From Monosiga brevicollis MX1 (lineage: Eukaryota > Opisthokonta > Choanoflagellata > Craspedida > Salpingoecidae): 64,000 nt of DNA. The notes under the pieces were generated by a model. It was not told the origin of the DNA, made no database searches, and saw only the letters and a program-made list of their open reading frames with translations. The translations under genes and the position numbers were made by a program. The stretch is from NCBI RefSeq assembly GCF_000002865.3, contig NW_001865042.1:1160207-1224206 (forward strand), read 5' to 3'. Positions within the stretch are counted from its first letter, which is position 1, and every line of letters starts with the position of its first letter. Positions 15,455 through 23,412 of the stretch are shown piece after piece.

Positions 15455-18400
15455 TCAGGTCATGTTTTTGCCATACGAGCCAGGCGGGGGTCGCAATAGC
15501 AATGGTAAATGATTCTGGGAGTCAAAAACCACACAAACGGCATGTAAGAGGATCGGATGCTGTCGCGAACATGTGCCTCGACAGGTTGTTGAACTCACCT
15601 TAACTTGGTCGTCGTTGAAAGCAAAAACATTTTTGCCAGTGTTAAACGTCACATTGGACCGACGTACGCCAGATTGACGAGTCACATCCAAGCTCACGCG
15701 CAGCTGATTGAACGGCATACCATGGTGGCGCACAAGCGTCTCTGCTGCCTGTGCGGTTGCAAACATTGCTAAAAAAGAAAGAAAGAAAGAAAAAAAGAAA
15801 GAAAAAAAGGAAAGGAAGGGAGCCCAGTGCCAAAAGAGAACATATCAGCTCAGGCTTTGGGCGTGCGTGCGAGAGCACGAAATTACGGGACAAGGTTACG
15901 TTCCAGTATGGCGTACCGGTGCGATCTTTGGCGCTTTTGCAAGAAATAAACTGCAGCCCATGAAGCAGATCACCGAGCTCTGCCACAAGGTGAAGCAGGG
16001 CCGAGTTCTTAATGCCCGAACGCGTGACTGCAGCTGCTATGCGCGTCTGCAGTTCTCGAATTCGCTCCTCCTTGTGCCTATCAACCAAAATTCAACCTGC
16101 TTGAGATGGCAGGCTCAGTGCAGGAGTGCGTTCCGCATGACACCCACCGATAGTATAAGGTGTTGTGCTCGCCGGCCTGCTCGGTCAGATGGCTGCGCAC
16201 TGCATCGGCATGCTGCTCCAAGAGTTGCCTGGCAAAAAGGATGGGCACAACGACAGCCAATCACGTTGTATACAAGGCCTCAAAATCAATGCACCAAGTC
16301 ACCGTCAAGTCTAGGCCACGTACCATGATGCTGCATTAATTTCATTCTGCAGCTGGTCCCCGCCCACCTTGAGTACCTCCGTCTGGACTTGATTGATACC
16401 TTGATTGAATAGGACGGCACAGACAGGTATGTACGCGTGCTGGAGCTCCGGCGGCAGCAGCTGCCACGTGGTGGGATCCACTGTAATTTCCACGACCAGA
16501 TGCCGACGACTGCCGAGTAGACCAATCTTGTATCCTACACCATGCATGGACAAGATCATCCAGGCGAGGACATCACAAAAAGTGTACGGGGTTTGGCTCA
16601 ATGAGTCACGTGCCGATCAACGCGGAAGCTGCAGATTCGCCCTGGCACAAAAGCTCACCATCGCGTGGACTGCGAGCCAAATCCACGCCCAAGCAAAAGG
16701 ACACGCCGTTCAACCAGTGCACGCCGAAGCGATGGTCTGCGACCATGCCTACTCCAGCCAAGTGACGGCATCAATGAGCACGAACCAGCCATCCAACTCA
16801 GGCTACAGAAATTGCAAGCAAACGAAACACAACAAAACACACACACACACACGCGCGCGCACACGCGGTGCCTGCTTTCCTCTTTCTACAAAGCAAAAGT
16901 ACAACCAGTTCACACACCTAGCTCAGTTCCACCGGTGGATAACAGGCTCGTGAAGATCGCCAGCACGCCATGCAGCGCAACATCATTCAGCCATTGCAGG
17001 CTTGCACCAGCATTTCGATCACCGTGCTCAATAGACAGCTATCTCGGGTCCAAGGACCATCCACATGCAAGCCAGCAAGCACGCGCGGGCGAATAATTCG
17101 AGGGTCAGGGTATATGCCTAGCGTGCACTTGAACGACCTCGGCTGAATGCGGCAGACCTGAAGTTTTTCGCAAAAGCCGCTGGTAAGCGCACTCAGCGCC
17201 GCGCTTCGGATGCTGTCCAAGCGATGTTCCGAGCCCTCCTGCTTGCAGGAGAACAGAAGAACAAACTTGGATCAGGGTGATCAAAACTGCCAATTACCGG
17301 CTGAACGTAAGTTAGGTCAAATGACAAGACCTGAATATCCCAATTGAGGTAGGCATTGCTCTCTTGATCCAAAACACCCAACACGGCGGCTTGCATGCAC
17401 AGCTGATGATGCGCGAGCAACAGCAACGGCATGAGACAAGCCCGCACAGCATAGAGAATTTTTGTCAAGCACAAAACCCGGAGAGCGAGCATACATACTT
17501 GCACGACGCATGCGCGCGCGGCCGCCACCGTGGCGGCGGCCGCTGCGTTGACGTCTGCCATGTCCCCGCCGGCCTGGAGCTTGGCTGATGCGACCGCCAC
17601 CCGAAGAGCTGTCACTATTGCCTCGCGCATCACGCCCCGTGAGTCAAAGCCAAAGTTACATTCGGTGCTCGTCAAAGTAGTGCCGCTGCTTTACCTGCCA
17701 AGTGCCGGAGCTTAGCCTCTGGAAAGGCAATTTCCCAAGCGACTCCCTGTAGAATGCGCACAATTGCAGCAGCATTGGCCTTGATTGCCTCAGCCTGCTC
17801 AACGGCCGCGTCCACCTATCCCACGACGCGCGGCCATACAGGCTCAGGCTATGTGGCGACACGATGATCTGCCGACCATAACACATCCCAACGAGACAAA
17901 AGGAGCGCAGGAGCCTAGAATATACGGTGGCTGTGCTCACCTGTGTTGACGTCAGGGCGCCTGTACGCATAATCAGACGCACAGGTGCATAGCCCTCCGC
18001 ATTTTGGGTCACGTTGCGCACCTACACACAAATGATGCGGTCTGTTATCATAAACGACTGAACCAACACTGAATGGAACGGTCCACAGACGCTAGACGCT
18101 CGAGTCGACGCGCCACTGACCCAAATGAGCTCGTTGGTGCCGTGCATGGCGGTGTCCTCATGCATCTCCAGCTCATCGCCCTCACTCAATGCAACTTCAA
18201 TCAGGCGATTCTGTGGCCGATGGTCGCGAAGAACGACGCCTGTGGAAAGCAGAGGACCTCAATCAGCTTACGACAGACTACGACAAAGCCAGGAAATGCC
18301 CTCGCTGTCATCGCGCCCGCCACCTTGTAGGGGTTGACAGCGAGAGAGCGCCTCAGCCAGTTCTTCGAGTCCAAAAACGAGAGCTTCGACCTCATCCAAA

Positions 18401-21400: not shown

Positions 21401-23412
21401 TCTGTGCGATGCGCTCGACCTCGGCGTGCAATGCCTAACAGCAGCGCCATTGAGTTGTTGTCCAAAAAGAGTTGGCTTGCACAACCAAGGTAAGTATAGC
21501 TGCCAAACATACCTCGAGCCATTGCTGCTTGACGGCGGTGCTATCGGCTTGCAATACATACCACTTGCCCTTGCTCACGTTGCTTACTTTAAAAGCATTC
21601 TGCACGGCTTGGCCACTGGTTTGTACATGAGCTGTAAAGATCCACAGCCAATATGGTGTGTGAAAAGCACGAAGCCAGGTGAGCATGGAACGGCTGCTAG
21701 AAATACAATGGGACTACCTCGGCCGTCGTCAAGATCTAGCAGGGACATGTTTTGTGTGCTGATGCGACCCTTGAAAACCAAGCCAGCAGCGTCCTTCAGC
21801 GCGTCTTCGACTGGTATGATAGGATTTTCTGTAGAGGGGCGGCGATGGCGGCATCAGCGTGTCAAACAGGAGGTCGTCTATCGAAATAGGACAGCCGTAG
21901 TGAGCACAAACCGACCTTTAGCTACTGCGGCGGGCACGCCCTTGCAGTAGATGAGCTCGTTGTCAAAGAGAAAGAAAGTTCGCAGGTCCGAGTGAGCAGA
22001 TTTGCCATGAGAAATGGAGAACTTGAGCAGCGTTCCGCAAAACAAAAGCTGGGTGGAAGTATCTCGCAAGTTTGGTCCCTATCCCCCAACAGCAACAACA
22101 CAAACGTGATCAATCAACTCTTGAACGTGCTTGGTTGATGTCAAGCACAGACTGCAGGCCATTGCGCAACGCACCGTCCAGCCTTCAACTTGATTTTGCC
22201 ATGCGTCAATGGCTTCCAGCCGCTCGAAACGGCGCTTGTCCTCGTTTACCACGTGCGCTACGTGCGCCATGGCCTCTGCAAGGCCATGGTGCATCAAGAG
22301 CCAGGTGAACGCAGCCATAGGTTTTCCCGTCGCTCTGTCACCTTCCCGTCCTTCAGCGAGCGATGTAGTAGAACAGACATACCATACGCTTGCTGGGTGA
22401 CCTGGCGTTGTGTATCGGTAGATGAGCGCTTTAAAAGTTCTTTGAAGAGCAAGGGATACTTGCAGATGCGTTGCATCACGCTAAGAAGATACGCTTCAAG
22501 GTTCAGCTTGGATTGGCTTCGCAATTGGCAGGCCTGGCACAATTCAATCAAAGCGTCAGGCGTTCCAGAGTTTCGACGCGAGTGAGTTCAGGAGGTGCGA
22601 TGCAATGAAGGATGTGGGCACATCAGGCATATATCGGGATCGTACGCGAATGAAGCTTCGAACGTCTGGGTGATCCAACAGGCCATAGAGGCGTTGCAGT
22701 CCGCGAACCTACACAGGGCATCATTTCAAACCCCGAGGCAGTTGAGTTTGGGTCCCATCGCAATGTTGGGCGGTCTTTTTGCGTGGCTTACATGACCCCG
22801 GCAATACTCCGAGTAAATCTGAAAGCGTGTACTCTAGCGGAGTCACAGCAGCTTGGTAAGGGCCATAGGCAATTGTGAAGCATCAGCTGCCTCACGATTA
22901 AAACTGACGTGTTGCAGAAAGACGCGTTGACAGGCCACATCATCTCCCTCATTCGCAAAGGCCGCCTCGAGAGCATCGACGAATTCAGCCTGAAAGGTCA
23001 GGATGTCCACCAGATTGCTATGCCATCAGCGCATCAATGTGGGTCAAAAATCAGCGAGGGTTATGCCAAGTGAGACAGAACAGACGCACGGCGCATCGTG
23101 CACGGCACGCGGCAAACAATGTGCACTTTCGGCAGAACGTACACGAACACATCACGGATTGCGTCCTCGCTAACATGCTCGCACTTCTGGAGTGGCTCAA
23201 TGTAGCTCTGGAAAGGACAACATGGGCAAAGAGATCCCAAGACGCATATGAATAAGATGTGCAAGCACAGGCCTGACGAATGCATGATACACAAACATTT
23301 CAAGGGTGCCCTCACAGCAACCTACTGTTTGCACGAGGAGCAAGCCGTTGACGTAATCGCGCTCGGTCGTGACGAGCTCCTCGAGGACACGCCAATACAC
23401 GAGGTCTGCCAT
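15455..23412 (-). CDS. PREX: P-Rex-like Rac/Rho guanine nucleotide exchange factor (DH-PH-DEP-DEP-PDZ-IP4P)
   Basis: P-Rex proteins are membrane-recruited Rac exchange factors integrating PIP3 and G-beta-gamma signals. The inferred start (23412) gives [20 protein letters not shown], the first DH helix. DH continues with [20 protein letters not shown] (about 22450-22510). [32 protein letters not shown] and [10 protein letters not shown] (about 21550-22070). DEP1: [39 protein letters not shown] (about 20820-21210). DEP2: [31 protein letters not shown] (about 20260-20720). [36 protein letters not shown] (about 19690-20130). The C-terminal half is IP4P-like: [18 protein letters not shown] segment, then the phosphatase signature CKSAKDRTG, then VFAFN and [11 protein letters not shown] before TGA at 15455. 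Animal P-Rex has two PDZ domains; I see one clear PDZ here. More than 20 small introns are likely, and exons at 16900-19600 are only partly resolved. Confidence 0.88.
15918..15941 (-). other. Cys-x5-Arg phosphatase signature in the IP4P domain
   Basis: The codons read CKSAKDRT, the same P-loop sequence found in inositol polyphosphate 4-phosphatases (INPP4). The exon is immediately followed by a GTACGC donor, and the next exon begins [12 protein letters not shown]. The nucleophilic Cys and the Arg are both present. Confidence 0.85.
16837..16867. repeat. (AC)n-(GC)n alternating purine-pyrimidine tract in an intron
   Basis: ACACAC...GCGCGC...ACACGCGG, about 30 bp of strict purine-pyrimidine alternation between IP4P-region exons of the P-Rex-like gene. 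This composition is prone to Z-DNA. Confidence 0.8.

Follow-up and report, generated by a model that had tools for sequence, protein, structure and literature searches.

A Probable P-Rex-Lineage RhoGEF Gene with an INPP4-Type Phosphatase Loop in the Choanoflagellate Monosiga brevicollis

Introduction

The exchange factors P-Rex1 and P-Rex2 and the lipid phosphatases INPP4A and INPP4B are the closest described counterparts of the gene reported here, a P-Rex-like gene of Monosiga brevicollis (hereafter MbPREX), which occupies positions 23412 to 15455 of a 64,000-nucleotide stretch of the MX1 genome (contig NW_001865042.1, positions 1,160,207 to 1,224,206; the window). In P-Rex1, residues E56 and N238 are described as required for Rac exchange (PMC12569377), and K280, R289 and K368 as the residues of the PH domain that bind phosphatidylinositol 3,4,5-trisphosphate (PIP3) (PMC7337056). 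A strand of the linker between the second DEP and the PDZ region joins the sheet of the IP4P domain in both proteins (PMC6795519, PMC13355178), and the G-beta-gamma surface of P-Rex1 involves both of its PDZ domains (PMC6795519). The IP4P half of P-Rex1 has Cys1583 and Arg1589 together with an Asp on a different loop; when the wild type was compared with C1583A on lipid and peptide substrates no activity beyond that of contaminants was reported, activity on unknown substrates being left possible, and an earlier report of a pseudophosphatase is cited by the same authors (PMC6795519). In the case of P-Rex2, what looks like a disulfide, together with an Asp that is displaced, is described as likely precluding activity, its phosphatase activity being untested in that account (PMC13355178).

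On the side of the phosphatases, CKSAKDRT is the published INPP4 loop, all eight of its residues being those of active INPP4B (PMC3248162), and XCKSAKDR is given for mammalian 4-phosphatases (PMC3091653). The site of INPP4A is described as more basic, partly through two lysines of the P-loop, and in SidF the P loop carries Asp650, the third of the catalytic residues, with SidF residue 651 aligned with Arg1589 of P-Rex1 (PMC6795519). In the portions consulted of PMC6795519 and of other P-Rex papers, the inactive phosphatase half is described as a scaffold and its origin is not stated. Titles and abstract openings of the literature pairing choanoflagellates with P-Rex, PREX or INPP4 contained nothing on MbPREX, although a prior mention is possible, for example in a survey of the evolution of Dbl RhoGEFs (Fort and Blangy 2017).

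Results

Gene Structure and RhoGEF Half of MbPREX

The MbPREX gene lies on the minus strand, with its ATG at 23412 and a stop codon ending at 15455, and its model joins 39 exons into 1330 codons in which the terminal stop is the sole in-frame stop. The exon borders were set by eye from GT-AG signals and similarity to P-Rex, nearby alternative borders existing for E22-E24, E30 and E31, and 37 of the 38 introns, which are 69-169 nt long, are GT-AG. Read in its two other frames, the joined sequence contains 44 and 59 stops. These counts are descriptive only, the model having been constructed open; the independent evidence is homology. The remaining intron is a 20-nt gap at 22899-22880 (minus strand), between E3, which ends at 22900, and E4, which starts at 22879; it is bounded by AA..GC, and no frame-keeping GT-AG intron was found across it on inspection by eye. 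These 20 nt were omitted from the model to preserve the frame of the DH domain, homology being present on both sides, and they mark a frame break inside that domain, be it an assembly error, a real frameshift or an odd intron.

In a phmmer comparison of MbPREX with the sequences of the PDB, P-Rex2 was the top match (9zq7, E 2.6e-121), followed by P-Rex1 (8tua and 6pcv, E 1.2e-117), most of the score coming from a main stretch at residues 9-623; the first match outside P-Rex was a RhoGEF with E 2.4e-41. The DH domain (exons E1-E7, residues 9-183, 22244..23388) and the PH domain that follows it (residues 214-331, 21513..22057) were delimited by the P-Rex alignment together with the Pfam models RhoGEF (1.4e-31) and SOS1_NGEF_PH (5.8e-16), both over their curated cut-offs, while the general PH model fell below its own. 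Both residues for Rac exchange are kept in the alignment, E12 and N183 of MbPREX corresponding to E56 and N238 of P-Rex1, and all three PIP3-binding residues of the PH domain are likewise kept, K225, R239 and K314 corresponding to K280, R289 and K368. The residues were mapped by hand, the numbering of the PDB chain differing throughout by 34 from the published one, a difference that also fits Cys1583.

DEP and PDZ Region

Curated cut-offs were also passed by the DEP model (5.5e-37, two stretches) and the PDZ model (1.3e-9, one stretch), and the PDZ_6 model passed its cut-off on the same stretch as PDZ. The first DEP domain lies at residues 375-441 with approximate limits (20820..21212; the genomic frame scored 2.2e-11 with Pfam DEP), the second, which is the best DEP stretch, at residues 476-538 (20303..20609), and the single PDZ at residues 566-639 (19693..20105), all on the minus strand. 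The linker between the second DEP and the PDZ in the exon model (residues 544-565, 20106..20171) contains the motif FRFVE in E17, which may be the counterpart of the linker strand that joins the IP4P sheet in P-Rex. A second PDZ, of which vertebrate P-Rex has two in all, was not found by Pfam in the joined protein. DEP-type exons resembling the tandem DEP of MbPREX were also observed elsewhere in the genome (G000:C33:428487-429172; three matches with 33-56% identity).

The first-pass annotation, made from the letters of the window, had announced a complete gene in a probable unicellular holozoan with the domain order of vertebrate P-Rex, to be checked with Pfam profiles. The span 15455..23412 proved exact for one minus-strand gene with an open model; completeness holds for the 1330 codons and their terminal stop and fails at the frame break inside the DH. 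The profiles recovered RhoGEF, SOS1_NGEF_PH, two DEP and one PDZ over their cut-offs, and the order DH-PH-DEP-DEP-PDZ-IP4P stood without the second PDZ of vertebrates. The predicted host was right, M. brevicollis being a choanoflagellate, and 150 cadherin matches scored of 288 candidates fit it. A frame piece of the genome also agreed at 22 of 22 residues with the Unc18 of PDB 2XHE, which PMC3693963 assigns to M. brevicollis, whereas the syntaxin-binding proteins next in rank had E about 1; a different SM-protein piece proved to be a Vps45 relative.

IP4P Half and Its P-Loop

The IP4P half comprises exons E21-E39 (residues 669-1330, 15458..19385, minus strand) and, compared alone with the PDB sequences, matched P-Rex2 (3.6e-11, 45.1 bits) and P-Rex1 (2.3e-5, 25.9 bits), the match beginning at about residue 1037-1040. 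In the same comparison no P-Rex match was reported for residues 669-1036, and residues 669-1006 are supported mainly by phase-consistent exons. A C2 domain was not found in the joined protein by Pfam at E up to 1. The last exon, E39 (15455..15514), holds the tail and the stop and aligns with the tail of a separate INPP4-like protein of the same genome, described below.

The P-loop of MbPREX, CKSAKDRT (residues 1247-1254, 15918..15941, minus strand), matches the published INPP4 motif (PMC3248162) in every residue, in contrast to CGTGMQRS in P-Rex1 and CSSGVHRC in P-Rex2, and has both lysines, an Asp before the Arg and a Thr after it. Judged from the residues, these are the telling features of the loop; the Cys and Arg alone are not telling, because P-Rex1 also has CX5R. 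The first-pass annotation was thus borne out as to the presence of an INPP4-type loop at 15941-15918 without counterpart in the P-Rex1 and P-Rex2 sequences, and the Cys and Arg that it stressed are present without being distinctive. Its remark that phosphatase activity is not established for P-Rex agrees with the available accounts and can be put more strongly for P-Rex1, which has been assayed with none shown (PMC6795519). Genome-wide searches covered 39.5 Mb in 57 contigs of M. brevicollis, and a degenerate DNA pattern for CKSAKDRT occurred once in them, as did a backwards control; the DNA pattern alone is therefore not significant, and the homology is.

A Separate INPP4-Like Gene

The genome was searched with a bait that approximates human INPP4, which matched a second locus (G000:C52:52461-53037) with 53% identity over 53 tail residues. 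The INPP4-like gene there (MbINPP4, G000:C52:52455-55556, L028) was modeled for its last 650 residues by joining 12 exons, with 11 of 11 introns GT-AG, and its product has the loop CKSGKDRTSM and the tail RPPDGYYG. A first view that INPP4 is absent from the genome was ruled out by this gene. Neither the IP4P exons of MbPREX nor the P-loop DNA pattern had found a second IP4P gene in its own genome, and the pattern missed MbINPP4 because an intron splits its P-loop. MbINPP4 matched the IP4P half of MbPREX in BLAST (2e-22, 85 of 322 aligned residues identical), the match beginning at residue 1012 of MbPREX, with a short weak match, FAAHxxGF (E 0.068), to the region of residues 669-1036; it matched P-Rex2 and P-Rex1 with 38.4 and 15.5 bits, more weakly than the IP4P half of MbPREX did. 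No RhoGEF half was found at MbINPP4 in the 10 kb around the gene, part of which is N, and three frames upstream of it hit no Pfam family; a run of 3539 N lies upstream (L028 5049-8587). The genome of M. brevicollis therefore appears to hold both an INPP4-like gene and the predicted MbPREX fusion.

Affinity of the IP4P Half

An alignment of MbPREX, MbINPP4, P-Rex1 and P-Rex2 provided 269 ungapped columns, in which MbPREX shares 80 identities with P-Rex2, 72 with P-Rex1 and 71 with MbINPP4, and MbINPP4 shares 66 with P-Rex2 and 56 with P-Rex1; in 11 columns MbPREX and MbINPP4 agree against P-Rex. Trees of five rows, one of them an approximate human INPP4 sequence, joined MbPREX to P-Rex and set both INPP4 rows apart, with ultrafast bootstrap values of 91 and 95. 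The topologies were compared 14 times, namely in 2 comparisons and in 12 that combined three alignments with two models, the P-loop columns being either included or removed, and every one of the 14 gave the P-Rex grouping the highest likelihood. The branch lengths were 1.2-1.3 substitutions per site for MbPREX and 1.0 for the P-Rex stem. Overall, the IP4P half of MbPREX weakly appears to group with P-Rex and not with INPP4, so that the phylogeny proposed in the first-pass annotation came out on the P-Rex side, weakly and with an approximate row and long branches. Relatives were absent from a set of genome contigs and a set of viral contigs, each scanned once with a single query.

Neighboring Features of the Window

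A neighboring reading frame with two SH3 stretches was observed at 12977-14320 on the minus strand (Pfam SH3_9, 4.5e-13); WD40 repeats were observed in frames at 24246-25366 on the plus strand, opposite to MbPREX (1.4e-8, and 5.4e-5 below the cut-off); and a CT/TC microsatellite, whose longest uninterrupted run is at 23685-23734, lies about 270 nt upstream of the MbPREX start codon.

Discussion

The account that we consider fairly probable is that MbPREX is a P-Rex-lineage, PIP3-regulated Rac exchange factor and probably a phosphatidylinositol 3,4-bisphosphate (PI(3,4)P2) 4-phosphatase, with a fusion that arose before animals and a catalysis that was later lost in them. From the conserved residues, the PH domain would bind PIP3 and free the DH domain, which would load a Rac-type GTPase with GTP, and, going by the loop, the IP4P domain of the same chain would remove the 4-phosphate of PI(3,4)P2 at the sites of Rac activation, through an INPP4-type active site made of a Cys nucleophile, two P-loop lysines, the Asp before the Arg and the Thr after it. 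The Asp directly before the Arg speaks for this account when compared with Asp650 on the P loop of SidF, the counterpart in P-Rex1 being likely on another loop. A protein with the order DH-PH-DEP-DEP-PDZ-IP4P would have descended vertically from before the split of choanoflagellates and animals, and animal P-Rex, represented by P-Rex1 and P-Rex2, would have lost catalysis while the domain became a G-beta-gamma-binding scaffold; vertical descent, with animal P-Rex losing the INPP4-type loop that MbPREX retains, is the simplest account. If MbPREX is an orthologue of P-Rex, the fusion of a DH with an INPP4-type domain is older than that split, which on the same condition sustains the suggestion of the first-pass annotation that the fusion predates animals. 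A further step, to which we give slightly less than an even chance, is that the founding P-Rex was bifunctional, combining Rac activation on PIP3 with consumption of PI(3,4)P2, a combination that may have been kept in choanoflagellates and turned into a scaffold in animals. One match to PI3K_rbd and one to G-gamma in the genome also speak for the favored account, the former alone being no proof of a class I PI3K.

Several observations weigh against the favored account. Among columns in which P-Rex1 equals P-Rex2, 33 are common to MbPREX alone and 19 to MbINPP4 alone, an excess that favors the P-Rex grouping but has a two-sided p of 0.07, and BLOSUM62 sums over the same 269 columns show no preference of MbPREX for P-Rex and a slight lean to MbINPP4 (-14 for P-Rex1 and -3 for P-Rex2). 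The approximately unbiased (AU) test rejects both alternative topologies at 0.05 in 11 of the 14 comparisons (0 of 2 and 11 of 12) and the Shimodaira-Hasegawa (SH) test in 3 of 14; long-branch attraction is a real concern, given the approximate INPP4 row and the long branches that are grouped. With one PDZ, a G-beta-gamma site of the P-Rex1 type is predicted to be at least partly missing in MbPREX, and the frame break in the DH could mean a damaged gene.

Other explanations account for parts of these data. A P-Rex-lineage protein whose IP4P domain was already a scaffold, its loop retained for folding or to bind lipid rather than for turnover, is unlikely, though the strongest of them: P-Rex1 keeps CX5R and the Asp and yet has no attributable activity, with the pseudophosphatase report cited in PMC6795519, and the MbPREX row is the longest branch in both trees, whereas its eight P-loop residues, including two lysines tied to activity, are all as in active INPP4B (PMC3248162, PMC6795519). 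A lineage-specific fusion, in which a P-Rex-like RhoGEF lost its IP4P half or had it replaced by an INPP4 copy, would fit the INPP4-type loop and tail, the BLAST match to MbINPP4 and the BLOSUM62 sums; the best trees, the domain order and the identities (71 of 269 with MbINPP4, fewer than the 80 with P-Rex2 and the 72 with P-Rex1) make it improbable. The model might also have merged two adjacent genes, one DH-PH-DEP-PDZ and one INPP4, residues 669-1036 being without a reported P-Rex match and having hand-placed exon borders. GT-AG introns with agreeing phases run across the junction, no C2 was found and an INPP4-like gene exists elsewhere, so we regard such a merger as quite improbable. Least credible is a decaying pseudogene, for which the 20-nt stretch without splice signals would speak; in all 1330 codons there is a single defect, the key residues examined are retained and 37 of 38 introns have canonical signals.

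If a P-Rex from before animals did have the loop intact, it would become testable that the scaffold half originated as a lost enzyme put to new use, and a signal-on step, the loading of Rac by PIP3, would have stood in one chain with a lipid-removal step before animals; choanoflagellates are among the closest single-celled relatives of animals, and human P-Rex is without the full phosphatase signature.

DEPTOR is not known to have DH, PH or IP4P, and its likeness to MbPREX lies in the tandem DEP (PDB 7dkl, E 5.5e-32). With INPP4A and INPP4B, MbPREX shares a loop identical to the published motif, and it differs from them in having DH-PH-DEP-DEP-PDZ in place of the N-terminal C2; MbINPP4 likewise has IP4P, with an intron-split loop that reads CKSGKDRT. 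P-Rex1 and P-Rex2 share with MbPREX the domain order, the Glu and Asn of the DH and the Lys, Arg and Lys of the PH, whereas MbPREX shows one PDZ instead of two, an INPP4-type P-loop, a tail like that of MbINPP4 and a length of 1330 residues against 1621-1625 in the PDB chains. On these likenesses and differences, MbPREX is classed as a putative variant within a broadly drawn P-Rex lineage, neither a vertebrate-type P-Rex1/2 nor an INPP4.

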